64,000 nt of DNA from Hyphomicrobiales bacterium (lineage in GTDB: Bacteria; Pseudomonadota; Alphaproteobacteria; JAPOUT01). Below the pieces are notes generated by a model, which was given only the letters and a program-made list of their open reading frames with translations, had not been told where the DNA came from and searched no databases. The translations under genes and the position numbers were made by a program. Shown here one piece after another: positions 142 to 20,303 of the stretch (its first letter is position 1; each line of letters starts with the position of its first letter). Location: NCBI GenBank assembly GCA_026708505.1, contig JAPOUU010000102.1, forward strand, positions 1-64,000. The letters are read 5' to 3'.

Positions 142-308
142 GGTTTTCCGAAAAATTATCGAAATTGCGCAGATATTTTTTTCGCCTATTGATTGAATCG
201 CGTGAAAACATCCTTCAAAAGAAACAGCACCAAATCAAGTGAAACTCCCCTAAATTCAAGGAATTACCCCGCTTTTCGATGGAGAAACTTCGATTCATCC
301 GCGCTTCT

Positions 309-1199: not shown

Positions 1200-2074
1200 C
1201 GCTTGAGACTCGTAAGAATGTGGGAAAAGTCCTTGTCCGCAAAACCGTCGTCAAAATGCTTGCGGTAAATTTCAAACGCCTTGCTGCCCAGTGACATTTT
1301 CGCTTCAACACGATCCATTGAGCCCATCGCCAGTGACAAATCCTTCAGCATCAAACGAACACTGAATCCTCCCTCGTAATCACGCGACGCCGGCGCAGTA
1401 TCCATCAAACCGGGATAGGGGTTGTAAACCTGCAGCGTCCAATTGCTTCCGGAGCTCGCCGACATAATCTCGCTCAACACACGCGCATCCAGTCCGAGGG
1501 CGTCGCCCAGCGCAAACGCCTCGCACGTGCCAATCATCTGAACCGCGAGAAGCATATTGTTGCAAATTTTTACGCTCTGTCCCGCACCCGCGCCTCCGGC
1601 ATGAAAAATCTTCTTGCCCATCAGTTCCAGCAACGGCAAGACGGCATTGAAATCCTCCGCCTCTCCGCCGACCATAAAGGTAAGCGTCCCTCCGCTTGCG
1701 CCGACAACGCCGCCCGAAACCGGTGCGGACAAAAACCGAAGCCCTTGATCTTTTGCTTGTTCGTAAAGTTCCAGGGCGTCATGCGGATCCGCCGTCGAAC
1801 AATCAACGATCAAAGTATTCGGCTTAAGTTTCGAGAAGAGTTTTTGTTCGTCGACATAAAAACGCTTCATCTCGGGGCCGCCCGGAAGCATTGCGAAGAC
1901 AACATCCGCTTCGATGTTTTCGAAGTCGTCGAGCCATCTTCCTCCGGCTTTAACAAACGCATCCTTGGGCGCGTCAACGACATCGAAACCTTCGACATCA
2001 TGACCGGCTTCGAGCAGGCGCAGCGCCATTGGAAGCCCCATGTTTCCCAATCCTGCAAACACCAGCCTCTTCAT
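1196..2074 (-). CDS. Beta-hydroxyacid dehydrogenase, 3-hydroxyisobutyrate dehydrogenase-like
   Basis: This 292-residue cytoplasmic NAD(P)-dependent oxidoreductase has the Rossmann motif GLGNMG (residues 8-13), the substrate-site motif APVSGG (about 118-122) and the catalytic lysine in GQSVKICNN (Lys169). The C-terminal half, with the conserved YNPYPG and MLKDLSLA blocks, most resembles 3-hydroxyisobutyrate dehydrogenase (MmsB). No other valine-degradation gene is near. It sits 17 bases after xsc and overlaps pta, so it may instead act on a sulfonate hydroxyacid or semialdehyde. Sulfolactaldehyde reductase belongs to the same superfamily. That role is inference. Confidence 0.82.
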   Translation of the reverse strand: MKRLVFAGLGNMGLPMALRLLEAGHDVEGFDVVDAPKDAFVKAGGRWLDDFENIEADVVFAMLPGGPEMKRFYVDEQKLFSKLKPNTLIVDCSTADPHDALELYEQAKDQGLRFLSAPVSGGVVGASGGTLTFMVGGEAEDFNAVLPLLELMGKKIFHAGGAGAGQSVKICNNMLLAVQMIGTCEAFALGDALGLDARVLSEIMSASSGSNWTLQVYNPYPGLMDTAPASRDYEGGFSVRLMLKDLSLAMGSMDRVEAKMSLGSKAFEIYRKHFDDGFADKDFSHILTSLKR

Positions 2075-2091
2075 ATTCGAGACCTTCGCTC

Positions 2092-3804: not shown

Positions 3805-3856
3805 GGGATTCCTCCTTGTAAATAAGTAACAGTCAAACGATTATGGGGGAGAAGAG

Positions 3857-4495
3857 GTGAGAGTCCAATTGTTTTCTTCGAGCGAGATAGAACTTCGGGA
3901 AGTTGCCTGCGCAAGGGGAGGGCGCGAAGTCTTCCGCAGCGTCCATGTGCGGCTATGCCCGGGCGGGGCGCTCGTGGTGCGGGGCTCCAACGGCTGCGGT
4001 AAAACCTCGCTGTTACGGCTGTTTGCCGGGATGCTGAAGCCCGTGCGCGGAGAGATTCGCCTGGACGCAACGGCGTGCTACCTCGGGCATGAAAACGCGC
4101 TTTCCAGGCAATCCAGCGCGCGGGCGAATCTGGAGTTTTGGACAAAATTTCTTGATGCGTCGAGAGAATCGCTGGAAGAAGGCATCGAATGCTTCCATTT
4201 AAGATCTCTGCTGTCGGCCCCGGTATCAAGCCTCTCGCTGGGGCAATGCCGCCGCCTCGCGCTTGCGCGGCTGTGTCTGACACCGGCAAATTTGTGGCTC
4301 TTGGACGAACCCGCCTCCGGGTTGGATGCACAAGCCCTCGAGAGTCTCGGCGCGTTGATGGCGTCGCACCGTGAAAGCGGCGGCATGGTGGTTGCCGCGA
4401 GCCATGTGCCCCTGCCTTTAAAGGACGCCGCAACGTTGCAACTCGACGAAAGCGGCTATCACTGCCGGCAAGATGAATTGGAACCATTGATATGA
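3857..4495 (+). CDS. ccmA: Heme exporter ATP-binding protein CcmA
   Basis: This 212-residue ABC ATPase energises release of holo-CcmE in the System I cytochrome c maturation pathway at the inner membrane. Walker A is GSNGCGKT (residues 43-50), the signature region is LSLGQCRR, and Walker B is LLDEPASGLD. It starts with GTG behind a purine-rich GGGGGAGAAGAG site and overlaps ccmB by four bases. Length and gene order are typical. The divergent xsc starts only 52 bases away, so their promoters must overlap or be very close. Confidence 0.93.
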   Translation: MRVQLFSSSEIELREVACARGGREVFRSVHVRLCPGGALVVRGSNGCGKTSLLRLFAGMLKPVRGEIRLDATACYLGHENALSRQSSARANLEFWTKFLDASRESLEEGIECFHLRSLLSAPVSSLSLGQCRRLALARLCLTPANLWLLDEPASGLDAQALESLGALMASHRESGGMVVAASHVPLPLKDAATLQLDESGYHCRQDELEPLI

Positions 4496-5142
4496 AAGCG
4501 TTCGTTGCATTGTTGTCGCGCGATCTTGGAGGCTCGCAACTGGGCGCGGGAGGATTGGGCGTATTGTTTTTCCTGGCGGTGGTCGTGTTGCTGCCGTTGG
4601 GAATAGGACCGCGCGGGGATGTCCTTGCGCAAATCGCACCCGGAATTTTGTGGATAGCAGCGCTGCTGGCTGCGCTGCTGGGTCTGGAATCAATGTTCCG
4701 CGAGGATTTCGAAACCGGCGCCTTGGAAGTGATGGCAATGTCCGCGCTTCCGCTGGAAGCCGTCGTGCTGGCAAAATGCCTGGCGCATTGGCTGGCGTGC
4801 CTGCTGCCGCTGGCGATATTAAGCGTTCCTTGCGGATTGTTGCTGCATTTGAGCGTGGGCGAATCGCTCGGCGTCGCAATTGCGATGCTGCTGGGAACGC
4901 CCGCATTCAGTTTGTTCGGAAGCATCGGCGCGGCACTGACATTGGATGCGCGGCGGGGAGGGCTGCTGGCATTGCTGCTGGTATTGCCCTTGTCGATGCC
5001 GCCGTTGATTTTCGGAAGCCTGGCAAGCGGCGGCGAAGGAAGCGTCTCGAGTCTGTTGCTGGGCACCGGACTCTCTCTGGGCGCGTTGGCGGTTGCGCCG
5101 TTTTTATCGAGCGCCGTTTTATGGACACGGCTTCGAGCGTAA
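4492..5142 (+). CDS. ccmB: Heme exporter permease CcmB
   Basis: This 216-residue integral membrane protein is the permease partner of CcmA. Six hydrophobic segments are visible, and the loop LESMFREDFETGALE after the second helix is the conserved CcmB cytoplasmic motif. The ATG overlaps the ccmA stop (ATGA), so the two subunits are probably made in equal amounts. Length is normal for the family. Confidence 0.92.
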   Translation: MKAFVALLSRDLGGSQLGAGGLGVLFFLAVVVLLPLGIGPRGDVLAQIAPGILWIAALLAALLGLESMFREDFETGALEVMAMSALPLEAVVLAKCLAHWLACLLPLAILSVPCGLLLHLSVGESLGVAIAMLLGTPAFSLFGSIGAALTLDARRGGLLALLLVLPLSMPPLIFGSLASGGEGSVSSLLLGTGLSLGALAVAPFLSSAVLWTRLRA

Positions 5143-5163
5143 AGATGCGCTATATTGAATGAC

Positions 5164-5895
5164 ATGACTCCTTTGATAAACCACTATGCGCACCCGACCC
5201 ACTTCATGCGCGTCTCCGGCATCGCGCTGCCGTGGCTTGCCGTTGCGAGCATCGTTGCGCTTGCCGTTGCACTCTATGTCTCCCTGTTCGTTGCTCCGGA
5301 GGATTATCTTCAGGGGCAAACCGTGCGCATAATGTTTCTCCATGTTCCCTCTGCATGGCTGGCATTGGGAGGTTATGTCGCCATCGCGATTGCTTCGGTG
5401 ACGGGCTGGATCTGGAAGCGTCCGCTCGCCGATGTCGCCGCGCGCGCCATCGCGCCGACCGGCGCCTGCTTCACCCTCATCGTCCTGCTTACCGGATCGC
5501 TCTGGGGAAAACCGATGTGGGGAACCTGGTGGGTCTGGGACGCGCGACTGACATCCGTCGCAATATTGCTGCTCTTGTATCTGGGATACATCGCCCTGTG
5601 GAACGCCATTGAGGAACCCACCCTCGCCGCACGAGCCGCCGGCGCGCTTGCGATCATCGGCGTCGTGAACGTTCCCATCATCCACTTCTCGGTCTCGTGG
5701 TGGAACACGCTGCACCAGCCCGCAAGCGTCTTGCGCCTGGACGGACCCACCATACACCCGACGCTGCTGATGCCCTTGTTGTTGATGTTTGCGGCGTTGT
5801 CCTTGTTGATGGTGACGATCACGCTCGCGCGCATGCGCCTTGAGATATTGCGGCGGCGCACTCGAATGCTGCGCCTTAGATCCGCACAAGCATAA
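5164..5895 (+). CDS. ccmC: Heme exporter / heme handling protein CcmC
   Basis: CcmC loads heme onto CcmE in the periplasm. The 243-residue protein has six transmembrane helices, the tryptophan-rich periplasmic heme-binding motif WGTWWVWDARLT, and conserved flanking histidines (MFLHVPSAW and IIHFSVSWWNTLHQP). An in-frame TTG lies at 5155, but ATG 5164 places the protein start at the family's usual position. It follows ccmB by 21 bases. Confidence 0.92.
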   Translation: MTPLINHYAHPTHFMRVSGIALPWLAVASIVALAVALYVSLFVAPEDYLQGQTVRIMFLHVPSAWLALGGYVAIAIASVTGWIWKRPLADVAARAIAPTGACFTLIVLLTGSLWGKPMWGTWWVWDARLTSVAILLLLYLGYIALWNAIEEPTLAARAAGALAIIGVVNVPIIHFSVSWWNTLHQPASVLRLDGPTIHPTLLMPLLLMFAALSLLMVTITLARMRLEILRRRTRMLRLRSAQA

Positions 5896-5900
5896 CCGCG

Positions 5901-6047
5901 ATGGGGAAATACGCCGTATTCATTTGGAGCAGTTATGGCGTTAGCTGCGTGGTGCTTGCAGGATTGGTAATAGCGACCCTTGCCCAATTGCATCGGCAAC
6001 GACGGTTGCTTCGCCGTCTCGAAACCGGAGACATCGAGCGTCCATGA
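5901..6047 (+). CDS. ccmD: Heme exporter small protein CcmD
   Basis: This 48-residue protein begins MGKYAVFIWSSYGVSC, then has one transmembrane helix and a basic tail LHRQRRLLRRLE. This is the usual CcmD pattern: an aromatic N-terminus, a single helix and a cytosolic Arg-rich end. CcmD stabilises CcmC and helps release heme-loaded CcmE. It starts five bases after ccmC and its TGA overlaps the ATG of ccmG. Confidence 0.85.
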   Translation: MGKYAVFIWSSYGVSCVVLAGLVIATLAQLHRQRRLLRRLETGDIERP

Positions 6048-6604
6048 ATCATTTGGCCCGTTTGTTTCCGATTGTGGTGTTCATGCTGCTGGCGGGAATG
6101 TTGCTGGCGGGGTTGTTGTTGCCGGGAGAGCGTTCGGATGTTCCCTCTCCGTTGTTAGGGGGAGAAGTTCCTGCATTTTCTCTGGAAGGCTTGGGGGAAG
6201 ACGGAGGTTTCTCGGATGCCGACTTGCGCGAGGATGTCGCGTTGGTAAACGTCTGGGCGTCGTGGTGCCTGCCATGTCGCGCCGAGCATCCCATATTGGA
6301 AGAACTTTCCTGTGTCGGAGGACTGGAGTTATACGGCTTGAATTACAAGGACACGCGGGAGAATGCGGAAGCGTTTTTGCAGGAATTGGGAAATCCGTTT
6401 ACCCGTGTCGGTTTAGACGAGAACGGTTTTGTCGGGCTGGATTGGGGGGTATACGGAGTTCCGGAGACATTTGTGGTCGGAAACGGCCGGGTGCTTTACA
6501 AGCACGTGGGCCCTTTGAGCAGAAAGCATGTCACGGACGAGTTGGCGCCCTTGTTTCGTTCGTTGAATTTGGACGCGGCCTGTTTGGGAGACGATGCCGG
6601 TTAA
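6044..6604 (+). CDS. ccmG: Thiol:disulfide interchange protein CcmG/DsbE
   Basis: This 186-residue membrane-anchored periplasmic thioredoxin reduces apocytochrome c cysteines. Residues 7-26 form the N-terminal anchor. The thioredoxin fold carries the active site WASWCLPCRAEHP (Cys75, Cys78) and the cis-proline loop YGVPETF. It ends the ccmABCDG run. ccmE, ccmF and ccmH are not in the window. Confidence 0.92.
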   Translation: MNHLARLFPIVVFMLLAGMLLAGLLLPGERSDVPSPLLGGEVPAFSLEGLGEDGGFSDADLREDVALVNVWASWCLPCRAEHPILEELSCVGGLELYGLNYKDTRENAEAFLQELGNPFTRVGLDENGFVGLDWGVYGVPETFVVGNGRVLYKHVGPLSRKHVTDELAPLFRSLNLDAACLGDDAG

Positions 6605-6623
6605 TTAAAACGCGGGGCGCAAT

Positions 6624-7553
6624 TCATCCCGCGCTTCCCACCAGAGCGCGTGCAAATGCATCGGCATCAAAAGGATGCAAATCCTCAATCCCTTCCCCCA
6701 ATCCGACATAATGAATCGGCAGGCCCCCTTCCTCGCACAAGGCCAGCAACACTCCTCCCTTCGCCGCGCCGTCCAGTTTCGTGACAATCAAACCGCTAAT
6801 CTCCGCAACCTCCCGAAACGCGCGAACCTGCGAGAGGGCGTTCTGCCCGACGGTTCCGTCTAAAACCAAAAGCGAATCATGCGGCGCGGATTCATCCAGC
6901 TTGCGCAGCACCCGCAACATCTTCTCCGTCTGCGCCATCAAGTCTCCCCGATTTTGCAGCCGTCCGGCCGTGTCTATCAACAACACGTCAAAAGATTCCT
7001 CCCGCGCACGCTGCAGCGCTCCATACGCCAAAGCGGCGGCATCCATCCCGGCCTCTCCCGCCTCGATCTCGACACCTGCACGCTCCGCCCACACGCGCAA
7101 CTGGTCTATCGCCGCCGCACGAAAAGTATCCCCCGCCGCCAGCAGCACCGAATGCCCGCCGGCCTTCAACAACGCCGCAAGTTTCCCGAGGCTTGTGGTC
7201 TTGCCTCCTCCGTTCACGCCGCTCGCCAAAATCACATGCGGACGATGCGCCGAATCAATCTGCAAAGGACGGGCATGCGCGCGCAGCTCCGAGGCAATGA
7301 CCTCCGCTAGAAGGTTTTGAATTTTTTCTTCCAGCACCGCGCCTTGAAGTTCCGCCTCGCTGCCGGAAAAGCGCGCCTCGCGTAATTTTTCGAGAATGCG
7401 CCGACTTGCCGCCGGTCCGACGTCCGCCTCTATCAGCGCGCGCTCAAGATTCCGCAGACGGGCATCGTCAAGGGCGGCGCCGAGTTTTTCCCCTGCGCCG
7501 AAGCCCAGCGACAGCGCCGTTCGCCGCAATCGCGCAAAGATATTTGCGCTCAT
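6624..7553 (-). CDS. ftsY: Signal recognition particle receptor FtsY
   Basis: This 309-residue SRP-GTPase receptor docks ribosome-SRP complexes at the inner membrane. The N-domain helices occupy about residues 1-95. The G-domain has G1 GVNGGGKTT (112-120), DTAGR, and the G4 motif TKLDGAAKGG. The usual acidic A-domain is almost absent. The reading frame is open further upstream, but ATG 7553 is preferred because it overlaps the mtaB stop (ATGA) and starts at the N-domain. It is third in the dapF-mtaB-ftsY operon. Confidence 0.93.
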   Translation of the reverse strand: MSANIFARLRRTALSLGFGAGEKLGAALDDARLRNLERALIEADVGPAASRRILEKLREARFSGSEAELQGAVLEEKIQNLLAEVIASELRAHARPLQIDSAHRPHVILASGVNGGGKTTSLGKLAALLKAGGHSVLLAAGDTFRAAAIDQLRVWAERAGVEIEAGEAGMDAAALAYGALQRAREESFDVLLIDTAGRLQNRGDLMAQTEKMLRVLRKLDESAPHDSLLVLDGTVGQNALSQVRAFREVAEISGLIVTKLDGAAKGGVLLALCEEGGLPIHYVGLGEGIEDLHPFDADAFARALVGSAG

Positions 7554-8812
7554 GACGCCATCACACCTATCGGCGTGTTTCCTCGCGCTTCCTTGATGTG
7601 CGCACGCATCACGCGTCCGGCAACCGCATCGCCTTCGGGGATTTCGATGAGCGCATATTGTCCGTTTCGGGCGCGGGCGGGACTCTCGACGAGAACTTCC
7701 TGGCTCGTGCCGACCAGCGATTGTGCATAACGACGGGCGGCGTTCCCGCCGAGTTCGCGCAAACGCCGGGCGCGTTCTTGTATCTGCGCCGAAGGCGTCG
7801 GAGGCATCCGTGCCGCCGGCGTTCCCGGGCGCGGTGAAAACGCAAATACATGCAACCAGGTGAGTCCGCATTCATCGACCAGGCGTTCGGTTTGACGGAA
7901 CATCTCCTCGGTCTCGGTCGGAAACCCGGCGATGAGATCGGCGCCGAAAACAATGTCGCCGCGTCGTCCCCGCAGCCGGTCGCACAAATCAATGGCGTCC
8001 TTGCGGGAGTGCCGTCTCTTCATTCGCTTGAGAATGATGTCGTCGCCCGATTGCAACGACAGATGCACATGCGGCATCAAACGCTTTTCGCTTCCAATCA
8101 GTTCGAGCGCAAGGGGGTCAAGCTCAATGGCATCAAGGGACGACAGGCGCAGCCGTTGCGCTTCGGGAACGGCATCAAGCAGATGCGCGAGCAAATCGCC
8201 CAGGCACATCGGAGGATCGAGATCCTGTCCGTAGGCGGTGAGATCGACGCCGGTAAGAGTTATCTCGGAAAATCCCTTGCGTGCGAGTTCCCGCGCGCGC
8301 GCGGCGACTTCCCGGGGAGGCATGGAGCGGGCGTTGCCGCGCCCGAAGGGAATGATGCAGAAAGTGCAACGATGGTTGCAGCCGTTTTGCACTTGCAGGA
8401 AAGCGCGGGCGCGTTCGTTGAATTCGGGGAGCGGCTGCCCGGCCTCGGATGCTTGCGTCGCCTCCATAATGTCGTCGACTTGTACGCGCGGCGAGTCTCC
8501 GGAAGCCAGCGCCCGAAAGCGCGAGGCTTGCATTTTTTCCCGGTTGCCAAAAACAAAGTCGACTTCTTTCATGTCGGCGAACTCGCCGGAATTGATTTGC
8601 GCGGCACATCCGGTAGCGATGAGGGTTGCATCGGGATTGTCGCGCCGAAGCCGCCTGAGCGCCTGGCGGGATTGTCGAACGGCCTCGGTGGTCACGGCGC
8701 AACTGTTGACGACGAACGCATCGTCCAGACCGGCGGCTTTTATATGCTTCTGGATAATGCCGGACTCGTAGCTATTGAGCCGACATCCCAGAGAGATGAC
8801 CTGCCTGCTCAC
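7550..8812 (-). CDS. mtaB: tRNA (t6A37) methylthiotransferase MtaB
   Basis: This 420-residue radical-SAM enzyme adds a methylthio group to t6A37 in tRNAs decoding ANN codons. The N-terminal domain has three cluster cysteines (Cys10, Cys38, Cys69), the SAM cluster motif is CNHRCTFC (145-152), and a C-terminal TRAM-like domain follows. The opening SLGCRLNSYES distinguishes it from MiaB. The GTG start at 8812 overlaps the dapF stop by four bases. The gene order dapF-mtaB-ftsY is a common alphaproteobacterial arrangement. Confidence 0.92.
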   Translation of the reverse strand: MSRQVISLGCRLNSYESGIIQKHIKAAGLDDAFVVNSCAVTTEAVRQSRQALRRLRRDNPDATLIATGCAAQINSGEFADMKEVDFVFGNREKMQASRFRALASGDSPRVQVDDIMEATQASEAGQPLPEFNERARAFLQVQNGCNHRCTFCIIPFGRGNARSMPPREVAARARELARKGFSEITLTGVDLTAYGQDLDPPMCLGDLLAHLLDAVPEAQRLRLSSLDAIELDPLALELIGSEKRLMPHVHLSLQSGDDIILKRMKRRHSRKDAIDLCDRLRGRRGDIVFGADLIAGFPTETEEMFRQTERLVDECGLTWLHVFAFSPRPGTPAARMPPTPSAQIQERARRLRELGGNAARRYAQSLVGTSQEVLVESPARARNGQYALIEIPEGDAVAGRVMRAHIKEARGNTPIGVMAS

Positions 8813-9696
8813 GCGACGCGCTGCCCGAGGGCATCGAACACGCCCTCATATTCGAGAACGGCCGCGCCGCCCATGAGGATGTGCCCGTCCTTCTCGCGTT
8901 GATGAAGTTCGAGGGTGCCGCCGGACAGATGCGCCCGGACCGTTCGGGCGCATAAATCATGCCGAATTGCCAGCGCGAGAGTCGCGCAGGCCGCCGTGCC
9001 GCAGCACAAAGTTGCACCGGCGCCGCGCTCCCAAACACGCAGGCGAAACGAATCTTCCGACTCAACATGAACAAAACTGATATTGGCGCGTTCGGGAAAA
9101 GCATCGTGATGTTCAAGCAAAGGCCCAACAGTCGCAAGATCAACATCATCAAGCGCGGCCGCCTCGTTGAAGAAAAAGACGCAATGCGGATTGCCCATGC
9201 TCACGGCTCCGGCAATATCGGCAGGCTGCAGCATCGGAGGAGAGAAAAATGCGGGCGAAAGACCGGCAGCGTCTTCAACGGACAGAGACAAGGGAACCGC
9301 GTCGGGCGAAAACACCGGCGCACCCATATCGACGCGCACTTGTTCGTTTCTGGTGATGCGACATTCAAGCCGGCGTTCTCCTGCTTGCAGAACGACCTCC
9401 CTGCCGACTTGTGATTCTCCCAACAACAGGGCGATACAGCGCGCGCCGTTGCCGCAGGCCAGCGAAGACGAGCCGTCGGCATTATAGACATCCATCACCG
9501 CGTCCACCCCCTCGGCCCCGTCCAGGACAACGAGCAATTGGTCGCAACCGATTCCCGTTTCCCTCGAGGCAATCGCGCGGCGCAATTCCGGTGTGAGCGC
9601 GGCGCTTAACGCACCGCCCCCGCGCCCGTCCAAAATGACGAAATCGTTACCGCAGCCGTTCATTTTAAAGAAGGGCATTTTAGAATCGTTAAACAT
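8809..9696 (-). CDS. dapF: Diaminopimelate epimerase
   Basis: DapF converts LL- to meso-diaminopimelate for lysine and peptidoglycan. Both catalytic cysteine motifs are present: ACGNGARC (Cys81) and CCGTAAC (Cys232). The substrate motif GCGNDFVILD is near the start. An in-frame ATG at 9714 exists, but ATG 9696 has an AGGA site about nine bases upstream and gives a 295-residue product, so it is preferred. It is the first gene of the operon with mtaB and ftsY. Confidence 0.92.
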   Translation of the reverse strand: MFNDSKMPFFKMNGCGNDFVILDGRGGGALSAALTPELRRAIASRETGIGCDQLLVVLDGAEGVDAVMDVYNADGSSSLACGNGARCIALLLGESQVGREVVLQAGERRLECRITRNEQVRVDMGAPVFSPDAVPLSLSVEDAAGLSPAFFSPPMLQPADIAGAVSMGNPHCVFFFNEAAALDDVDLATVGPLLEHHDAFPERANISFVHVESEDSFRLRVWERGAGATLCCGTAACATLALAIRHDLCARTVRAHLSGGTLELHQREKDGHILMGGAAVLEYEGVFDALGQRVA

Positions 9697-9830
9697 CGAT
9701 TGTTTTCCTACCATTGCGGCAAACTATCACATCTAGGAGACGGATTCGAATCACCATTGACACGGGCGCCTTGAGACCCTAGCCTTGAGACATCCTTTAC
9801 ATTCTCTGATAGCAACGCACACGGAGGCTT

Positions 9831-10154
9831 ATGCGCATTCAGGTTTCGGCAATTCACTTTTCTCTCGGCGACAGTTTTCGAACCCACGCCGAAGAACGCC
9901 TCGCAGGCGCCGTTTCCAAATACACCGAACGCGCCGTGGACGCCTCCATGACCTTCGTCAAGGATGGACAGGAGTACCAGGCGGATGCGTCGGCCCACTT
10001 GGGTTCGGGGCTGTTGGTGCAAGCGCAAGGACGCGGCGGGGATGTTCGCGCCAGCTTGGATCAGGCCCTTGAACGCCTCGAGAAGCAACTGCGCCGACAC
10101 AAACGCCGCGTCACCGACCACCACTCAAACGCCCGCTCGCATAAAAGCGCCTGA
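9831..10154 (+). CDS. hpf: Ribosome hibernation promoting factor, short form
   Basis: This 107-residue protein is the sigma-54 modulation / S30EA domain only: MRIQVSAIHFSLGDSF at the start, a basic helix near LEKQLRRHKRR at the end. It binds the ribosome decoding centre in stationary phase. Most alphaproteobacterial Hpf proteins are long, with a C-terminal dimerisation domain. Here the frame stops just after the linker, which suggests loss of that domain. ATG 9831 follows a CGGAGG site. ptsN lies 74 bases downstream, the usual pairing. Confidence 0.85.
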   Translation: MRIQVSAIHFSLGDSFRTHAEERLAGAVSKYTERAVDASMTFVKDGQEYQADASAHLGSGLLVQAQGRGGDVRASLDQALERLEKQLRRHKRRVTDHHSNARSHKSA

Positions 10155-10228
10155 AAACCCGCTCGAGCCGGACGCTTCGCACACCACATAAAAACGTCTA
10201 AAACCACATTTCAGGAGACACATTGCCG

Positions 10229-10693
10229 ATGGAGCTGATGGAGATATTGTCGCGCGAAAGCGTGATTGCGGGCTTGGGAGTAAATTCCAAGAAGCAACTG
10301 CTTCAATCAATGTCGGAACTGGCATCCGGAGTCACGGGGCTGCCGGCACACGACATTTTTGCGACTCTCAAAGAGCGCGAGCGCCTCGGTGCGACGGGAG
10401 TCGGGAGCGGCATCGCCATACCCCACGGCAAGCTCGTCGACATGGAGAGGCTGTATGGATTCTTTGCCTCCCTGGAAACGCCTGTCGCCTTCGATGCGGT
10501 GGATGAAAAGCCGGTGGATTTGGTCTTTCTGCTGCTGGGCCCGGAAAGTGCCGGGGCCGACTACCTCAAGGCATTGGCGAGGGTTTCCCGCATGCTCGGC
10601 GACGGGGATCTGACCCGCAAGCTTCGCGCCTGCGAGGAATCCGCCGCCCTTTTTGCCCTGCTGACCGAGCCCGCCGCCTCCCATGCGGCCTAA
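10229..10693 (+). CDS. ptsN: Nitrogen PTS EIIA protein
   Basis: This is an EIIA(fructose-type) domain of the nitrogen phosphotransferase system, a cytoplasmic regulator that receives phosphate from NPr. The phosphorylated histidine is in GIAIPHGKL (His66 from this start). About 154 residues is the usual length. An in-frame TTG at 10223 sits five bases from the AGGAG site and is a real alternative start. It follows hpf, as is common. rpoN, often upstream, is not here. Confidence 0.9.
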   Translation: MELMEILSRESVIAGLGVNSKKQLLQSMSELASGVTGLPAHDIFATLKERERLGATGVGSGIAIPHGKLVDMERLYGFFASLETPVAFDAVDEKPVDLVFLLLGPESAGADYLKALARVSRMLGDGDLTRKLRACEESAALFALLTEPAASHAA

Positions 10694-10730
10694 TTTTTTC
10701 GTGATTTTCGGCGGATTCATGCGGGATACC

Positions 10731-10759
10731 CTTGAAAAGCAACTCCGGATTCCCTATCT
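10731..10759 (+). promoter_or_regulatory. RpoH (sigma32) heat-shock promoter of groESL
   Basis: CTTGAAA (10731-10737), a 14-base spacer, then CCCTATCT (10752-10759) matches the sigma32 pattern CTTGAAA / CCCCATNT closely. It lies about 60 bases before the groES start. No CIRCE inverted repeat (TTAGCACTC type) was found in the intergenic region, so control is probably by RpoH alone. Confidence 0.72.
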
Positions 10760-10817
10760 ATTCGCTGTATTGCCCTCGTGGCAGATTTATAAATCTTGAA
10801 CCAAGGAGAAATGAGTT

Positions 10818-11132
10818 ATGAATTTTCGTCCACTACATGACCGGGTCGTTGTCCGGCAGTTTGATGAAGAAAGCAAATCGCCCGGAGGCATCATCATCCC
10901 TGATTCCGCCGCCGAGAAGCCCTGCCAAGGGGAAATCGTTGCGGTCGGCCCCGGCGCGCGCAACGAACAAGGAAAACTCACACCCCCCGACGTCAAACCC
11001 GGCGACCACGTGCTATTCGGCAAGTGGAGCGGTACCGAAGTGACCATCAACTCGGAAAAGCTGATGATCATGAAAGAAAGCGACATCATGGGCGTGTTGG
11101 TTTCAAAAGGTAAGGGCAGGAAAGCCGCATAA
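10818..11132 (+). CDS. groES: Co-chaperonin GroES
   Basis: This 104-residue lid of the GroEL chamber starts [14 protein letters not shown], contains the mobile-loop region ([14 protein letters not shown]) and ends with [12 protein letters not shown]. The ATG follows an AAGGAG site. It is the first gene of the heat-shock operon and is separated from groEL by 110 bases. Confidence 0.96.
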
Positions 11133-11209
11133 GACTCACAAAGCAAGCGGCGCAACCGTGTCGCCTGCACCCACACATAACAACCAAAACCTAATGTTGG
11201 CAGGATTGA

Positions 11210-12910
<1,701 letters not shown>

Positions 12911-12934
12911 ACGCCACTGCGGATATACGGAATT

Positions 12935-12963
12935 GAGGGCGGCTTATGCCGCCCTCTTTTTTT
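12935..12963 (+). terminator. Rho-independent terminator of groESL
   Basis: A perfect 9-base stem (GAGGGCGGC / GCCGCCCTC) with a TTAT loop is followed by seven T residues. It begins 24 bases after the groEL stop and marks the left edge of the AT-rich island. Confidence 0.9.
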
Positions 12964-13115
12964 GCGTGGTAAGGAAAAGAAAGGGGACATATAACGCTAT
13001 GTTCAACCTTCCTTATCGGGGAGTTCGTGAAGTAATTCACAACTTTGAACATCTGGATATTGCTTCTTGAAATAATCATTTTCAAGCGGTACCCAACAGC
13101 AGAGAATTAAAGCCC

Positions 13116-13229
13116 TTACCCGAAATGTTGCCAAAGATGCGTTTTGAAAAGCCTTTGTATTGTATCATCAAGAAGCATCTGTAAACGTTTGCTAAATGAC
13201 TTTCGAAATTCTGGATATTTGTTTCTCAT
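13116..13229 (-). CDS. Small hypothetical protein coupled to the 13226-13972 gene
   Basis: This 37-residue ORF starts with an ATG that overlaps the TGA of the upstream 248-residue gene (ATGA). The peptide is basic and helical-looking (MRNKYPEFRKSFSKRLQ at the start, LWQHFG at the end). It could be a coupled small protein, or the displaced C-terminal end of the upstream gene after a frameshift. No family recognised. Confidence 0.35.
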   Translation of the reverse strand: MRNKYPEFRKSFSKRLQMLLDDTIQRLFKTHLWQHFG

Positions 13230-13972
13230 GGAATTCGCTTTCCATCCTCATCATAATAATCGCATTTCTCAAGACCAAAGGACTGCCATAATATATCGAA
13301 AGCTGGGCGCTCAAAATCTTCAATATTTTTCACCTCTTGTAAATTTTCTATTTTTATCTCCGGCAAAGTAATTTGCTCTCTATCTGATGGGGGGTGCAGT
13401 TCGTAATCACCGGTAAAAAAGCGGATACGTGAGTTAATAGGAAATCTGTAATCTAAGACACGCAATAGGGAAACTCCTATTATTATGGGAGCGGTTATGT
13501 CAAAGTGTGACATGCATTTTTTAAATCCGTCCATTACCACCCACAAATCATTGATAAACTCTCCTGGGTATAGCCATCTCCTCCCTGGGGGATCATTACG
13601 AAAGGATAATGCAAATGCCATCTCCAATGCGCCTGAATGAAATATCTGCGCATTCCAAAAGTATCGCCCTTTATCTCCTTCAATAAATGGATGAGTTATT
13701 TCCTTTTCATTCGAATAAAATCTGACACCATCCAAATTTAACCTTTTTGACTCGCTGTATGTTCTCATTCGAATGAATTTAGAAATTTCCAAGGACTTAA
13801 TATCATCAGGTTTAAATAATGCTTTCTCTGATATGGGAAGCCAGTGCACAACACAATAGGGTCCATCGCTCAAAGGACCCCATACCTCTCCATTATTGAC
13901 TTTGTTTAGGCGGTCTTTACGAAATTCCTTCGCCTTTTCAATACTCTCTAATCCAGCCAATAATAGTGTCAT
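13226..13972 (-). CDS. Hypothetical protein, paralogue of the 14109-14942 product
   Basis: This 248-residue soluble protein is clearly related to the divergent neighbour. Shared blocks in the same order are FRKDRL / FRRNRL, PYCVVHWLP / AHCILHWMA, AQIFHSGALE / TQIFRSGAVE, APIIIGVSLL / AVIIGISILG and KIENLQEVKNIEDF / RIENIQDIENIDEQ. The QIFxSGAxE block and the 'vvHwlP' strand recall the region C-terminal to the AlbA_2 (Schlafen-like) domain in bacterial AlbA_2 proteins, here without that domain. This link is from memory and is weak. ATG 13972 has a GAGGAAG site. Function unknown. Confidence 0.65.
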   Translation of the reverse strand: MTLLLAGLESIEKAKEFRKDRLNKVNNGEVWGPLSDGPYCVVHWLPISEKALFKPDDIKSLEISKFIRMRTYSESKRLNLDGVRFYSNEKEITHPFIEGDKGRYFWNAQIFHSGALEMAFALSFRNDPPGRRWLYPGEFINDLWVVMDGFKKCMSHFDITAPIIIGVSLLRVLDYRFPINSRIRFFTGDYELHPPSDREQITLPEIKIENLQEVKNIEDFERPAFDILWQSFGLEKCDYYDEDGKRIP

Positions 13973-13984
13973 GATATTTCTTCC

Positions 13985-14110
13985 TCAATTTGCGTTTTTG
14001 GGAGCATCTAATTTCTCGCTGACATTTCTAATTATAGAAGTATAATCTCTACAATCAACCAACGCAAAACCAATATACCGATATATTTCAGGCGAAAATG
14101 GCAGGAGCAT
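13985..14110 (-). CDS. Doubtful small ORF with a hydrophobic start
   Basis: This 41-residue frame (MLLPFSPEIYRYIGFALVDC at the start) ends 12 bases before the 13972 start codon. The frame stays open to a TTG at 14176, which would add a longer hydrophobic segment and overlap the divergent gene by 68 bases. No ribosome site is seen for either start. It may be a membrane peptide of the minus-strand operon, or only an open frame in AT-rich DNA. Confidence 0.2.
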   Translation of the reverse strand: MLLPFSPEIYRYIGFALVDCRDYTSIIRNVSEKLDAPKNAN

Positions 14111-14942
14111 GAGCAAAATAAGTGACAGTCCAAAAAACAAATATCCTGAACGAGAAGAATGGTTGCTCTTTCTCAAATGGGCACGTGACTTTCGAAGAAA
14201 TCGCTTGAAAGAAATTGAAAAAGGGGGCGTATGGGATAGCAGGTTCCCTGGAGCTCACTGTATCCTACACTGGATGGCTATGCCTTCTGAGGGACAAAAG
14301 CCCGTAGATATTGAATTCGTTAGTAAAAGCGCATACAAAGACTTCATAGCCTTTGGAAAAAAACATCATGCGAAGTGCTACAAGAATTCAGATGGATTGC
14401 TTATAAAAACAGATTTTTTAGAAGGTAGCGAAGAATGGTTGGAGAGGTTTGATGGAGAGCGTCAATATCTACAGGGTTTCCAGTATACGCAAATATTCCG
14501 CTCCGGTGCGGTAGAGGCTGTATATGTGCCGCCAACTCAAAGACGGAAAGGGAAAGAGACAAATTACATATCTCTCTATGCTTTCGAGTTTTTCCGTAGA
14601 CAAATCAAGAATTGCATGAAACGAATATTTGACTTGAGATTTTCAAGCGCCGTGATAATAGGCATAAGCATATTGGGAGTGAAAGACTATTCGATATACA
14701 CCCCAATAATATCTGCGCGTTATTTGGTGCAACTTCCTCAAAAAATTCCTGATGATGCTGATGAAGTTCTCAATTCGGCAGAAAGTGATATAAAGTTAGT
14801 GATGAGGATTGAGAATATTCAAGACATAGAGAACATTGATGAACAAATTCTGCAACCTATCTTCGACCTTTTATGGCGCGATTTTGGATTTTTTGAGTGC
14901 GACCGAAATTTCCAGAATGGATCATGGGAGCTTCAACAATGA
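14109..14942 (+). CDS. Hypothetical protein, paralogue of the 13226-13972 product
   Basis: This 277-residue soluble, charged protein shares at least five ordered blocks with the divergent gene to its left, including TQIFRSGAVE and the C-terminal IFDLLWRDFGFFECD (IFDILWQSFGLEKCD-like in the partner). The two are far diverged, so the duplication is old or each was acquired separately. Its stop overlaps the start of the pentapeptide-repeat gene (ATGA), so the two are translated together. A relation to the C-terminal part of AlbA_2-domain proteins is possible but unproven. No catalytic motif is evident. Confidence 0.65.
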   Translation: MSKISDSPKNKYPEREEWLLFLKWARDFRRNRLKEIEKGGVWDSRFPGAHCILHWMAMPSEGQKPVDIEFVSKSAYKDFIAFGKKHHAKCYKNSDGLLIKTDFLEGSEEWLERFDGERQYLQGFQYTQIFRSGAVEAVYVPPTQRRKGKETNYISLYAFEFFRRQIKNCMKRIFDLRFSSAVIIGISILGVKDYSIYTPIISARYLVQLPQKIPDDADEVLNSAESDIKLVMRIENIQDIENIDEQILQPIFDLLWRDFGFFECDRNFQNGSWELQQ

Positions 14943-15937
14943 AGCAGCCTTCTAAACTGGATGAGAGAACGGAACAGATATTACTGAAAGCGCAAAATTA
15001 TTGGGTATGGTTTCGAGGATTGAGCTGCTTCGGACAAGTACTGCCTGTAGTATTATCTTTAATATTATTTGTCGCTTTAAGTTTCCACATATATTTTGAA
15101 CTATCGGGAACAACATGCGAGCCGGTATGTATAAAAGGTGAGGATTGTACATCTACCACGCAATGTAAGCGCAATTCATTTTCTTGGGAAAAAATGATTG
15201 AGGCGTTAGCTTCAAGTAGCGCACATAACTTAAACTTATTACTGATTGCAAGCATTGGTTGGTTTTTCTTCTATTGGCGTGCGAGAAGTGCTGACCATGA
15301 TGCAAAAACCGCCAAACAAAACGCCGTAACCGCAGAGAAGGGATTAACCACTGAGAGACTTACCCGCGCAATCAATCAACTTGCCAGTGACAAACAATCC
15401 ATATGCATAGGCGGAATTCGTAGTTTGGAGCAAATTGCCTTATCTCATGAAGAAGAGTGCATGAAAATCATACAAACTTTGGTTGCTCGTATAATTGAGA
15501 TTTCGTCACAACAGCATCTCTCAAAAAGATTGAGAGGACGACATAATCACCTAGATGCCGAAATTGCTATCATAACATTATCTAACATTACGAAACCTCT
15601 TGGAAATCAAAAAAAATCTTTATGTATATTGGCTAATATTGATTTAGAAAGCTTGCATTTTGAACAAATAGATCTATCTCATTTCTCGTTAGTGAACACA
15701 AATCTTACTGCAGTAAATTTTAAAGGGGTTAATTTTACTGATACGAAGTTATCTGAATCCATTATTGATGATGCTACTTTTGAAGATTGTAGAGACCTGA
15801 CTCGAAAACAAATTATGAGCGCTAAATGGAAAAAAGGGCGCTCGCCTCGTGGGTTACCTAAAAGATGGAATTTGCCACAAGAAAACCCCACTAAAGGCAA
15901 TGTTCCACAAGATTTGCTAAAACTGTCGAAGGGGTAG
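14939..15937 (+). CDS. Membrane-anchored pentapeptide-repeat protein
   Basis: This 332-residue protein has two transmembrane helices (about 33-55 and 98-113). The loop between them carries four cysteines (60, 64, 70, 76). A charged coil follows with the motif LTRAINQLASDKQSICIGGIRSLEQIA, trimmed here to note the typical 'AxxQL..G-I-x-LE' helix found in membrane pentapeptide proteins. Residues about 230-285 form pentapeptide repeats of the A(N/D)Lxx type (IDLSHFSL, TNLTAVNF, KGVNF). ATG 14939 has a GGGAG site and overlaps the upstream stop. The frame is open upstream but that start lacks support. Role unknown; such proteins often accompany signalling or defence genes. Confidence 0.7.
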   Translation: MKQPSKLDERTEQILLKAQNYWVWFRGLSCFGQVLPVVLSLILFVALSFHIYFELSGTTCEPVCIKGEDCTSTTQCKRNSFSWEKMIEALASSSAHNLNLLLIASIGWFFFYWRARSADHDAKTAKQNAVTAEKGLTTERLTRAINQLASDKQSICIGGIRSLEQIALSHEEECMKIIQTLVARIIEISSQQHLSKRLRGRHNHLDAEIAIITLSNITKPLGNQKKSLCILANIDLESLHFEQIDLSHFSLVNTNLTAVNFKGVNFTDTKLSESIIDDATFEDCRDLTRKQIMSAKWKKGRSPRGLPKRWNLPQENPTKGNVPQDLLKLSKG

Positions 15938-16071
15938 GTAGATTGGGGGTTTATCATCGACAGACGAGAGGATTCATTGAAAAACTTCGCGAAAACCGCG
16001 GAAAAATTATAGTTACCGCAACAAATGAGGTGCTCTTGTCGAAATTCGTTTTTCACAACATCTCTCTTCAT

Positions 16072-17103
16072 TTATTCCACTATCCAAAGTCTAGAGTCTT
16101 TTTGTGGATACCTTTTATTCTCTGAGATTATCGCAGACGAATAGTAGTGAATCTGTTCCTGGCCAAGTTTTTTCCAGTCCTGCCTCCTATCTTTTAGGCT
16201 AGAGATGTTTTCATACCCGATTGTAAAATCCTCCCCATCACTAGCTTTGGAAGTTAATTTAATTATTCTGATTGCTCGTAGAGTTTTCGATTCTGATAAA
16301 TTTTCTCTCCCAATTGTGCGCAGATCGGTTAAAATATCATCAAGCAAGGATTCCGTTTTCTTGCGGAACATATCATGAATTTTTGCCACTTCCTCGATAT
16401 ACCCACGCAACATAAATTTTATATCAAAGCGATCACATCCAGTTTGTTTCATTAGCATAAAGTCATCTTCGCAATCCTTTTTAAATTTTCGATCTCTAAT
16501 TGCGGTATCTATGATAATTGCTGGATTGCTAGTATTTCGAGTACGTCTGGGGGAACCATTTACGTTAATATCTTCACGTTCAAACTTGATTTGTAAAATG
16601 CCCTGAACATCAGCATAAGGAGCATGAGTTATAAAATTTCGAAGGGCTTGCATAATGCGGTATTCAAGCCGGGTATCGCAAGAGCAAGCAAACTGATTTT
16701 CTATGTCGTTTATATCTTTTTGTGTAATTTTCTCTGAACTTTTTGTTAATTCTTTCAAATCTTTTACATATGAGTTGCGTAAACTGTTGATATAGGTGTG
16801 TATGGTGTTTAACAATGCCATCAGGCTTACATGGATTTTTTGTTGTCCCAACCATCCAATTCTACGATCGTCTTGTAAGGCGCAATGATTATAATCAAAC
16901 GAAATCTCAAAAAGAGACATTTCAAAATTCTTGTAGGCTTGTCCTATGGAGGCATAATGGTTTTCCGCAAGCCATAATATCTTCAAAACTTCGTCTTTTG
17001 CTTTTAGTTCTATAAAGGCCTCTTCATTTATCTCTTTTTCTTTGCTTGTATCCGGATAAACAATCATCACATATCTTGGCTGCTCTTGGATTGTCTGGTT
17101 CAT
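16072..17103 (-). CDS. Hypothetical protein with an RNxxxH (HEPN-like) motif
   Basis: This 343-residue, mostly helical, soluble protein carries RNFITH at residues 155-160 inside the helix-like stretch YRIMQALRNFITHAPYA. R-N-x-x-x-H is the catalytic signature of HEPN ribonucleases, and the position at the end of a long helix fits. The rest (charged, with a C-terminal helix around FRKKTESLLDDILTDLR) matches nothing I recognise. ATG 17103 has a strong AAGGAGA site six bases upstream. It is transcribed alone. A HEPN toxin or a HEPN-fold structural protein are both possible. Confidence 0.55.
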   Translation of the reverse strand: MNQTIQEQPRYVMIVYPDTSKEKEINEEAFIELKAKDEVLKILWLAENHYASIGQAYKNFEMSLFEISFDYNHCALQDDRRIGWLGQQKIHVSLMALLNTIHTYINSLRNSYVKDLKELTKSSEKITQKDINDIENQFACSCDTRLEYRIMQALRNFITHAPYADVQGILQIKFEREDINVNGSPRRTRNTSNPAIIIDTAIRDRKFKKDCEDDFMLMKQTGCDRFDIKFMLRGYIEEVAKIHDMFRKKTESLLDDILTDLRTIGRENLSESKTLRAIRIIKLTSKASDGEDFTIGYENISSLKDRRQDWKKLGQEQIHYYSSAIISENKRYPQKDSRLWIVE

Positions 17104-17167
17104 GGCATATCTCCTTATTCAAGTGCTTGCGGATTTTCTGCAATTTTCCGAAGCAACCCCACTGGTT

Positions 17168-17296
17168 TTATTGTCGTTCAATCCTTCCCCACATCCACAT
17201 CAATCCCGGACGAGAAGTTTCTAAATCTTTGGGACCGTGCTTTACCTGCCATTCCATCAACTCTTTCAAGATCGCTCCCGCCACATCTAATATCAT
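17168..17296 (-). CDS. Possible small protein of 42 residues
   Basis: This open frame lies between two same-strand genes in a 249-base gap. It encodes a protein-like sequence (MILDVAGAILKELMEWQVKH at the start, three tryptophans, end GRIERQ). No ribosome-binding site is visible, so it may be a remnant. No family recognised. Confidence 0.25.
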   Translation of the reverse strand: MILDVAGAILKELMEWQVKHGPKDLETSRPGLMWMWGRIERQ

Positions 17297-17352
17297 AATC
17301 GTCTGCTTGTTAGGAGCTGTTACTAACTTTGGTTGTCAAGATCGGGTTAATT

Positions 17353-17727
17353 TTAATTGGAGATAAACCATTTTTTAAAAAAAGAAGAAGCATCGGATAT
17401 AACTCGTTTATCTAAATCCATTTTTTTAGCAATCATATAAAAAACAAAACCTTGTATAGGTACACCTAGTTTGGATATAAATCCATTACAATGCAGTTGA
17501 GGATAAAAAATATAATTTAACATAATCGCTGTAAATACAAGATAAAGATACAATAGATAATTATACTTGTAACCAGCCTCTTGTTTATCTATTTCATTAT
17601 CAAGGGCACGTATGACACTTCTACTCCGTCCTTCAGGATTAGCATTAAGCCAATCCTCATCAACTTCGTATTCATATACTCGTAGTAACTTTTTATTTTG
17701 GGATTGTTTTTCTGGCACGGAACTCAT
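17353..17727 (-). CDS. Small two-helix membrane protein, candidate toxin of a Panacea module
   Basis: This 124-residue protein has a charged N-terminal half (about 1-55) and two hydrophobic segments (about 57-74 and 84-98, YLLYLYLVFTAIML and GVPIQGFVFYMIA). It starts 35 bases inside the end of the Panacea-domain gene, an antitoxin-then-toxin order. Panacea antitoxins are known to pair with many unrelated toxins, including membrane-acting ones. That this is the toxin is inferred from position and the hydrophobic helices only. Confidence 0.5.
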   Translation of the reverse strand: MSSVPEKQSQNKKLLRVYEYEVDEDWLNANPEGRSRSVIRALDNEIDKQEAGYKYNYLLYLYLVFTAIMLNYIFYPQLHCNGFISKLGVPIQGFVFYMIAKKMDLDKRVISDASSFFKKWFISN

Positions 17728-18151
17728 CTAATATCATTTTATTCGGTATTTTAATATGGCGAGTTCCTTCTACATACACAGCAGCCCATGCCCCTTGATC
17801 CCAATGAGTTATCCTAACTAATTCCAGAGCAGATTTATCTTTCACTTTTTTGTATGTATCTTCTAGCATGTGATACTCCGTTTCCTCACGGTCTATATCT
17901 TTTTTAAACAAAAATGCAGTTTTAGGAATGTTGTTATATCCAAATGATTTAACGTGATGATACAAAGTCGGTGATACTGGTCCGAATTCCCAAGCTTCAA
18001 ATTCTTCGTCAATTAATGGAACGTTTTCATCTTCATTCAATCCAAGATAAAACATATGAGCGAGATACAAAATCTTTTGCATCTCTATATTACTCAAACT
18101 ACCGCTTGATATAGCACAAAGAGCCCTACCAGCTTCAAGTGGTGTAATCAT
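17693..18151 (-). CDS. Panacea-domain (DUF4065, SocA-like) antitoxin
   Basis: This 152-residue cytosolic protein has the full Panacea pattern: MQKILYLAHMFYLGLN near the start, then the block FEAWEFGPVSPTLYHHVKSFG, and a C-terminal helix with HWDQGAWA. Family members neutralise a partner toxin, in some cases by acting as a proteolysis adaptor. The downstream overlapping gene encodes a small membrane protein, a plausible partner. ATG 18151 opens a two-gene operon. Confidence 0.75.
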   Translation of the reverse strand: MITPLEAGRALCAISSGSLSNIEMQKILYLAHMFYLGLNEDENVPLIDEEFEAWEFGPVSPTLYHHVKSFGYNNIPKTAFLFKKDIDREETEYHMLEDTYKKVKDKSALELVRITHWDQGAWAAVYVEGTRHIKIPNKMILDEFRARKTIPK

Positions 18152-18239
18152 GGCAGACAGACAGAAAGGTTTTGTTGATATTCATTATTTAGGATTGTAG
18201 CATTGATATTTCAAGAAATAAACAGGGCAATCATCATTC

Positions 18240-18662
18240 TCAAAGCATCCGGATTTCCGCCGTTTTCTTCCCATCCAATAAACACTCCACCGCATGCACC
18301 TTGCAGATTTTATAATCCTCTCTTTTTGAGACAATTATATCATTGCGGTCTTTTTTTAAATCAAAAGGAAGAGATCTTATGGTTAAGCACTTCTCGTTAA
18401 TATAAAGAATAAAGACGAGTTTGTAATCCTGATATGGTTGAGGTGCGGCTATCTCAAACCAATCATCTCCGATATTTTCAAGAACATCCCTGCTTTTCCA
18501 CATAGCCCGTAACGGTATATGCAATAGCAAATTATATTCCATATTTCCACCTCTATGGGTTGCTGATACTTGGATATCATAAACAGCTTCCCATCCTTTC
18601 CTATCAGGCGGAAAAATTGTGATTTCTGGATTGTCTCCTATTGCAAAATTTAACATTGCCAT
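18240..18662 (-). CDS. Hypothetical protein of 140 residues
   Basis: The protein is soluble and beta-rich looking, with blocks WEAVYDIQVSATHRGGNMEY and KLVFILYINEKCLTI. The ATG at 18662 is preferred over the in-frame ATG two codons later because an AAGGAGA site lies eight bases upstream. It is the first same-strand gene of the right half of the island, 88 bases before the Panacea gene. No family or function recognised. Confidence 0.5.
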   Translation of the reverse strand: MAMLNFAIGDNPEITIFPPDRKGWEAVYDIQVSATHRGGNMEYNLLLHIPLRAMWKSRDVLENIGDDWFEIAAPQPYQDYKLVFILYINEKCLTIRSLPFDLKKDRNDIIVSKREDYKICKVHAVECLLDGKKTAEIRML

Positions 18663-19193
18663 TATCGTGTCTCCTTCTATCTTGCTGCTCCAAAATCTCC
18701 AACGACGTCGTTCCTCTCAAAGACATCGCCAACTTCGTTATCAAAAGTTAATAGATTCAGATAAATTCTGTCAATACTATGGTCAATGTATGAATCGGCT
18801 TATGAGTTGAAAGGCTTATCCCCCAAATCATACAGGGGCATAATGCGCCTAGAATAACGAGCGAATTGAACCTTGTAGACGACTCACCTTACCCAATCCT
18901 TATCAAAATGGGCGCATATTTTCTTGGCAATACAGGTAATCGTTATGGAAGGGGATCTGCTGAAATTCGCCCCATATCCCCATCATTATTAGCAGTATTA
19001 TCCAAAGGTATCCCAATATAGAACACCTAAACGGGTTTGATTAAAAGATATGCGGTTGTTTTTGTAGAACGTTCATCTACCCCGAGCCTTCCTAAAATGA
19101 TTGAGAAGGAACGAACCTTGCTCTTGCCAGTGCAGAGACCGAAAAAACCAAAATGGGATTTGGCGGGAGTACTGGCCGCAACCTCAACCGGCC
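18663..19193. other. Non-coding, probably eroded DNA at the island's right end
   Basis: No credible gene was found in these 531 bases. On the minus strand, from about 19020 down to 18800, one frame reads as protein-like for long stretches (for example IGIPLDNTANNDGDMGRISA) but is broken by several stops. This suggests a decayed coding region. The last 150 bases before frmA regain the GC-rich style. No repeat, att site or RNA gene recognised. Confidence 0.4.
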
Positions 19194-20303
19194 CTAATAA
19201 ACCACAACCGAGCGAATAGACTCGCCCGCATGCATCAAATCGAACGCGTCATTAATCCGTTCCAAAGGCAGCTCATGCGTAATCAGCGAATCTATATCAA
19301 GTCGGCCATCCATGTACCAATCCACAATCTTCGGCACATCCGTGCGGCCCCGTGCGCCCCCGAAAGCCGTCCCGCGCCAAACTCTTCCCGTCACCAATTG
19401 AAACGGCCGCGTTGAGATCTCCGCTCCCGCGCCCGCGACCCCGATAATCACACTCTCCCCCCAGCCCTTGTGGCAGCACTCCAAAGCCTGACGCATCGTC
19501 TCAACATTCCCGATACATTCGAAAGAATAGTCCGCACCGCCACCCGTCAACTCGACCAGATGCCCGACGATGTCGCCCTTTACCTTCGAAGGATTGACAA
19601 AGTCCGTCATTCCGAACTTTCGACCCAAAGCTTCGCGAGCCGGATTGAGATCCACTCCGACAATACGAGCCGCCCCTACAAGCCGGCATCCTTGTATGAC
19701 ATTCAAACCTATTCCTCCGAGTCCGAACACCACGACCGTTGAACCTGTCTCGACTTTCGCAGTGTTCATTACCGCGCCGACACCCGTTGTTACTCCGCAA
19801 CCGATGTAACAGATCTTCTCGAAGGGAGCGTCTTTTCGAACTTTTGCCAAAGCTATCTCCGGCAAAACCGTGTGGTTGGCGAAAGTGGAGCATCCCATGT
19901 AATGCAGAACCTTTTCTCCGTTGTATGAAAATCGTGAAGTTCCATCCGGCATAACGCCTTGCCCCTGCGTTGTTCGAATTGCCTGGCAGAGATTTGTTTT
20001 CGGGTTGAGGCAAAAATCGCATTCGCGGCATTCCGGTGTATAAAGGGGAATAACGTGGTCGCCGGGCCGGAGCGAAGTAACGCCTTCGCCGATTTCGACG
20101 ACAACACCGGCGCCTTCGTGCCCGAGAATGGCCGGGAACTGTCCCTCGGGATCCTCGCCGGAGAGAGTGAAAGCATCGGTATGGCAGATGCCGGTTGCCT
20201 TGATTTCAACGAGCACCTCACCGGCTTTGGGGGGCTCAATGGTTACTTCGACGATTTCGAGGGGTTTGCCGGATTCAAAGGCAAGGGCAGCACGGGTTTT
20301 CAT
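19194..20303 (-). CDS. frmA: S-(hydroxymethyl)glutathione dehydrogenase / class III alcohol dehydrogenase
   Basis: This 369-residue zinc enzyme oxidises the glutathione adduct of formaldehyde. Catalytic zinc ligands Cys40 and His62 (GHEGAG) and structural zinc cysteines 92, 95, 98 and 106 are present, and the NAD motif [12 protein letters not shown] follows. The class III marker [15 protein letters not shown] is clear. The ATG has an AGAAGGAGG site. The esterase FrmB/FghA is not adjacent. The gene is monocistronic and lies at the right edge of the AT-rich island. Confidence 0.94.

Follow-up and report, generated by a model that had tools for sequence, protein, structure and literature searches.

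Stand-alone copies of the C-terminal domain of Schlafen/AlbA_2 proteins, one of them overlapping a gene for a membrane pentapeptide-repeat protein, in an acquired island of a Hyphomicrobiales bacterium

The locus described here lies in a 64,000-nucleotide stretch of DNA from a Hyphomicrobiales bacterium, which as a whole is referred to as the window. We use the name SC domain for the ~225-aa C-terminal domain of Schlafen/AlbA_2 proteins. With positions counted along the window, the locus comprises the following features:

12963-19192, no strand assigned: AT-rich acquired island of 6.2 kb in the groEL-frmA interval, delimited by flank alignment to a same-genus genome (G399) and by GC content
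13116-13229, minus strand: 37-codon ORF, probably no gene, with an ATGA overlap with the stop of P0003
13226-13972, minus strand: P0003, 248 aa, a stand-alone SC domain, assigned by profile, BLAST and identity to the L032 protein (see below)
13973-14108, no strand assigned: divergent regulatory region of 136 bp with back-to-back, overlapping promoter-like sites
14109-14942, plus strand: P0002, 277 aa, a second, more diverged stand-alone SC-domain protein, assigned by BLASTP and tree
14939-15937, plus strand: P0001, 332 aa, a two-helix membrane pentapeptide-repeat protein, assigned by PF00805, hydropathy and an AlphaFold2 (AF2) model

The four ORFs had been described in a first-pass annotation of this DNA and were found again at these positions, as was the 136-base region from which P0003 and P0002 are read divergently. 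This region carries promoter-like matches on both strands, with 11/12 positions agreeing at 14019-14046 on the plus strand and 10/12 at 14058-14031 on the minus strand; of the 23 sites in a scan of the island, both belong to the top three, and they are matches to the consensus only. An AGGAG stands directly ahead of the P0002 ATG. The ATG of P0001 at 14939 overlaps the TGA stop of P0002 (ATGA) and is preceded by an RBS-like GGAG inside P0002, so that co-transcription and translational coupling of the two genes are probable. On the left side, the proposed coupling of P0003 to a 37-residue ORF holds as far as the ATGA overlap is concerned. As a gene, this ORF is not supported: when an ATG is given at its position, about 9% of shuffles contain an ORF of at least 37 codons, and no match to Pfam was found for it.

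The AT-rich character of the island noted in the first-pass annotation was likewise borne out, with a GC content of 36-40% (13-19 kb) as compared to about 55% outside. A contig of the same-genus genome G399 (C54, locus L081) aligns at 89% over window positions 274-12962 and resumes at 19193-20090, with only about 40 bp and a clean junction where the window has the 6.2-kb island. Since the flanks are thus contiguous in G399, the island is an insertion that is present here and missing there, and it is horizontally acquired. One of the flanking genes, frmA, encodes S-(hydroxymethyl)glutathione dehydrogenase. Neither a shared direct repeat of 9 bp or longer nor a tRNA was found at the two island ends.

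The island also carries other genes. On the minus strand, a protein with a SocA/Panacea antitoxin domain (Pfam E 1e-15; 83 bits with the NCBIfam SocA model, under its cutoff of 190) overlaps a 124-aa putative membrane ORF with a hydrophobic stretch (17353-17727 and 17693-18151), and the two likely form a Panacea-type toxin-antitoxin pair. A 343-aa protein (16072-17103, minus strand) contains a single R-x4-H motif (RNFITH at residue 155) and is HEPN-like in this respect, with no family match, and a 140-aa ORF (18240-18662, minus strand) likewise has no family match.

P0002 and P0003 are 29% identical over 261 columns (BLASTP, E 2e-23), far above background, in agreement with their earlier description as diverged paralogues. 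A whole-genome search (E 1.5e-20 between the two) showed them to be the sole two copies in the 2.25-Mb, 93%-complete assembly. P0003 is furthermore 46% identical (45-46% across comparisons) to residues ~165-402 of a 402-aa AlbA_2-fused protein from Hyphomicrobiales bacterium CLI1_bin_3, the same-genus genome that lacks the island (L032/L004; hereafter the L032 protein). When P0003 was compared with plasmids by tblastn, it matched the C-terminal ~225 aa of AlbA_2 proteins annotated as 'ATP-binding proteins' and of a TIR protein, down to E 6e-8. An SC-domain profile built from 12 members recognises P0003 with E 2e-82 and P0002 with E 1e-67, both also being among the 12 rows of the profile. In Pfam, P0003 had no match and P0002 only a chance-level one, and AlbA_2 (PF04326) was absent from both. 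The suggestion that the C-terminal regions of AlbA_2/Schlafen proteins be compared thus proved fruitful: judged from sequence, P0002 and P0003 are firmly identified as this domain minus the AlbA_2 part. Conserved motifs are kept in both proteins at 29% identity and both ORFs are intact, so that decay is not obvious.

None of Pfam, NCBIfam, PHROGs and PADLOC contains a model of the domain, and the paralogues found no meaningful match in them; a sequence search of the PDB with the paralogues or the domain profile was similarly without meaningful result. An AF2 model of the SC domain reached moderate confidence (pLDDT 64, pTM 0.70), and Foldseek found no significant fold for it in either the PDB or BFVD, where the best E was 5e-3 and TM-scores were low. 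The weak matches to generic two-layer alpha/beta folds and to TBP-like viral proteins were not used.

Outside the window, 25 copies of the SC domain were found with the profile in the loci collected. Their N-termini are AlbA_2 in 22 cases, TIR in one and REase-like in one, and in the remaining one, a 297-aa ORF, no N-terminal partner was recognised. The TIR case is the plasmid protein P0005 of Planococcus lenghuensis (L008 2494-3657), in which TIR_2 (E 2e-32) and the SC domain form a single chain, and which is a candidate single-gene TIR immune protein. The REase-like case comes from an archaeon, where the N-terminus of a protein encoded on plasmid pHMA133 of Haloarcula marismortui (L033 3542-4657) matches Mrr_cat below the cutoff (E 0.0055) and the PADLOC profile Aga_REase with E 9e-9 over residues 12-138. 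In one of the 22 AlbA_2 cases, on a Rhizobium tropici plasmid (L005 2451-3681), the AlbA_2 and SC parts lie in different frames in overlapping ORFs, possibly a split gene or a frameshift. Overall, the domain is uncommon: counting the genome of the window, 8 of the 399 genomes from the phylum have it, and 8 of the 337 from the class. A scan of genome contigs yielded the same-genus fused protein as the sole relative. Scans of viral contigs with single sequences or close pairs, using P0002, P0003 and two other queries, gave no relatives, and those with more distant SC members gave two AlbA_2-fused loci.

Thus, a family without a model in the four databases named above occurs in bacteria and archaea C-terminal to conflict-type effector domains of no fewer than three kinds, and is for this reason a good candidate for a sensor that they share. 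The earlier idea of a soluble 'sensor/binder' gains support from the additional fusions to TIR and REase-like effectors.

P0001 matches PF00805 with E 8e-9 and 35.3 bits as compared to the Pfam gathering score of 20.2, and contains tandem A(D/N)LXX repeats. Its hydropathy profile shows a clear transmembrane helix around residues 28-55 and a second hydrophobic helix around 95-115, followed by a juxtamembrane helical region and a short pentapeptide-repeat tail. C60, C64, C70 and C76 all lie between the two helices, and the previous account of an ATGA-coupled, two-helix pentapeptide-repeat protein with four cysteines is therefore confirmed. In an AF2 model of P0001 alone, the helices at 9-56 and 95-135 are usable and the remaining model is of low confidence. 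A paralogue of 429 aa is encoded by a solitary gene on another contig of the same genome (L067 8509-9795; G000 contig C45); it is 40% identical over residues 95-270 and is missing the Cys-loop N-terminus. Similar membrane pentapeptide proteins elsewhere are mostly encoded by solitary genes, on plasmids and chromosomes.

The first-pass annotation had compared the soluble protein and its membrane-anchored neighbour to a two-component module, which as a conserved system would be expected to recur. A P0001-like neighbour was found at none of the 25 outside SC loci, including that of the closest relative, the same-genus L032 protein, and an SC domain at none of nine other P0001-like loci. In this sample of 34 fetched loci, some of them short, the pair was thus absent throughout, and a conserved system is not supported. 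The pair with P0001 varies a known modular theme in a lineage-specific manner and is no conserved new system.

The absence of the pair at these 34 loci, together with the mostly solitary state of P0001-like genes including the paralogue in the same genome, counts against a reading in which P0002 and P0001 are partners in trans. The same observations would be expected if the two were chance neighbours, P0001 being an independent membrane pentapeptide protein of a widespread type that was captured beside P0002, with the ATGA overlap reflecting compact packing only. However, the overlap of the P0001 start with the P0002 stop and the GGAG inside P0002 make co-transcription and coupling probable, and the Cys-loop N-terminus of P0001 is not common to its paralogue. 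We regard mere proximity as only slightly less likely than a partnership in trans, and neither as more likely than not.

The origin of the stand-alone state was addressed by a maximum-likelihood tree of 27 SC-domain copies. It places P0003 and the AlbA_2-fused L032 protein as sisters (support 100/97), with P0002 as sister to these two (98/93); the next outgroup is AlbA_2-fused as well (96/93). As the stand-alone copies are nested among fused proteins, the stand-alone state is derived, and it would have been reached either by two losses of AlbA_2 or by one loss and one regain. The exact position of P0002 is less sure owing to its long branch. A direct, recent tandem duplication giving rise to P0002 and P0003 was rejected because P0003 is nearer to the L032 protein than to P0002. 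The nesting within fused proteins, the possibly split gene of Rhizobium tropici and the lack of any AlbA_2-fused copy in this genome to work with are all consistent with P0002 and P0003 being leftovers of AlbA_2-fused defence proteins that bind phage triggers, dampen full-length relatives or decay. Arguing against such remnants or decoys are the two intact ORFs with an RBS, the good divergent promoter-like sites and the conserved motifs in both proteins; moreover, a full-length partner to be dampened is absent from the 93%-complete genome. Taken together, an origin as remnants appears unlikely.

The reading that we tentatively prefer is a role in biological conflict, with P0002 working in trans with P0001 after the loss of its own fused effector, and with P0003 as a second sensor or regulator. 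With N-termini that can be swapped between AlbA_2, TIR and REase-like domains, the SC domain is most simply understood as a sensor or adaptor. In the single-chain fused proteins, the N-terminal part would most likely be the effector, and the SC part would hold this effector off or switch it on. The AlbA_2 part has been lost from both island copies, and in the case of P0002 the effector role might have been handed to the translationally coupled P0001. P0002 would then sense a signal of an intruder or of stress in the cytoplasm and bind the cytoplasmic helical/pentapeptide part of P0001, which in turn would act at the inner membrane. P0003, expressed from the divergent promoter, could regulate this module or serve as a further sensor with another specificity.

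A conflict role is favoured by the defence-type neighbours of the L032 gene and by the SocA/Panacea and R-x4-H (HEPN-type) genes of the island. The island around the L032 gene (L032 7491-14124) contains, in addition to the AlbA_2-SC gene, a type II methylase with a DUF6996/6997 protein, a DpdB-like gene, a type IV REase, and ThsB-TIR with an 8xMP membrane protein. Anti-phage defence through RNase activation is reported for bacterial Schlafen-linked proteins in PMC12839542, which cites Taboada et al. 2025. The lack of any phage, PHROG or PADLOC link of the SC domain itself counts against a defence function. That the domain merely regulates AlbA_2 proteins of plasmids and integrative elements, as a housekeeping or mobile-element function with no part in phage defence, is suggested by several AlbA_2-fused relatives that adjoin integrases or recombinases on plasmids, but is quite improbable in view of the TIR and REase-like N-termini and the defence-island setting of the closest relative, which point to conflict functions.

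In its boldest form, the conflict reading would make the SC domain an undescribed sensor domain of AlbA_2, TIR and REase immune proteins that was split off and re-coupled in trans to the Cys-loop protein P0001, so as to form a defence module of two genes whose effector sits in the membrane, with the second, divergent sensor as partner or antagonist; in this full extent we consider it unlikely to hold. The stand-alone copies offer a natural experiment on whether the SC domain works once its effector is gone or a membrane partner has taken the effector's place. If the domain is indeed a sensor, the single-chain proteins annotated as 'ATP-binding protein' in many genomes would gain a function.

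Among known systems, none of the anti-phage systems catalogued in PADLOC 2.0 is represented in the island, with 0 component families matched by the 7 island proteins scanned. The effector HalA of the Hailong system is a membrane pentapeptide protein. P0001 resembles it weakly and in the pentapeptide repeats only (14.6 bits vs. the HalA cutoff of 250), and P0002 and P0003 match no nucleotidyltransferase family, to which the partner HalB belongs, so that Hailong was rejected. HglK-like proteins carry membrane helices at the N-terminus and a pentapeptide tail behind them (PMC8145042), a layout common to HglK and P0001; HglK, however, has four predicted transmembrane regions and 36 repeats, as compared to two helices and a short repeat region in P0001. 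An APAZ partner of short Argonautes (SPARTA, SPARDA or SPARSA) was also rejected: the SC domain has no match to an APAZ or PNTD profile or to a solved APAZ chain, the Argonaute models of Pfam and PADLOC found no match among the scanned island genes, and the PADLOC Aga_ profiles match only the N-terminal TIR or REase parts of SC relatives. The closest comparison is with the Schlafen/AlbA_2 proteins themselves (PF04326; annotated as 'ATP-binding protein', ~380-420 aa), whose C-terminal ~225 aa are homologous to full-length P0002 and P0003, whereas their defining N-terminal SLFN_AlbA_2 domain, present in 22 of the 25 relatives, is absent from both. P0005 of Planococcus lenghuensis shares the same C-terminal domain, with TIR_2 in place of AlbA_2, and differs from P0002 and P0003 in having this TIR domain. 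The logic of the family is analogous to that of the short-pAgo partners TIR-APAZ, SIR2-APAZ and REase-APAZ, in which one C-terminal module is combined with swappable TIR or nuclease effectors, the APAZ proteins of short Argonautes being known with swappable SIR2, TIR and other domains (PMC6299218).
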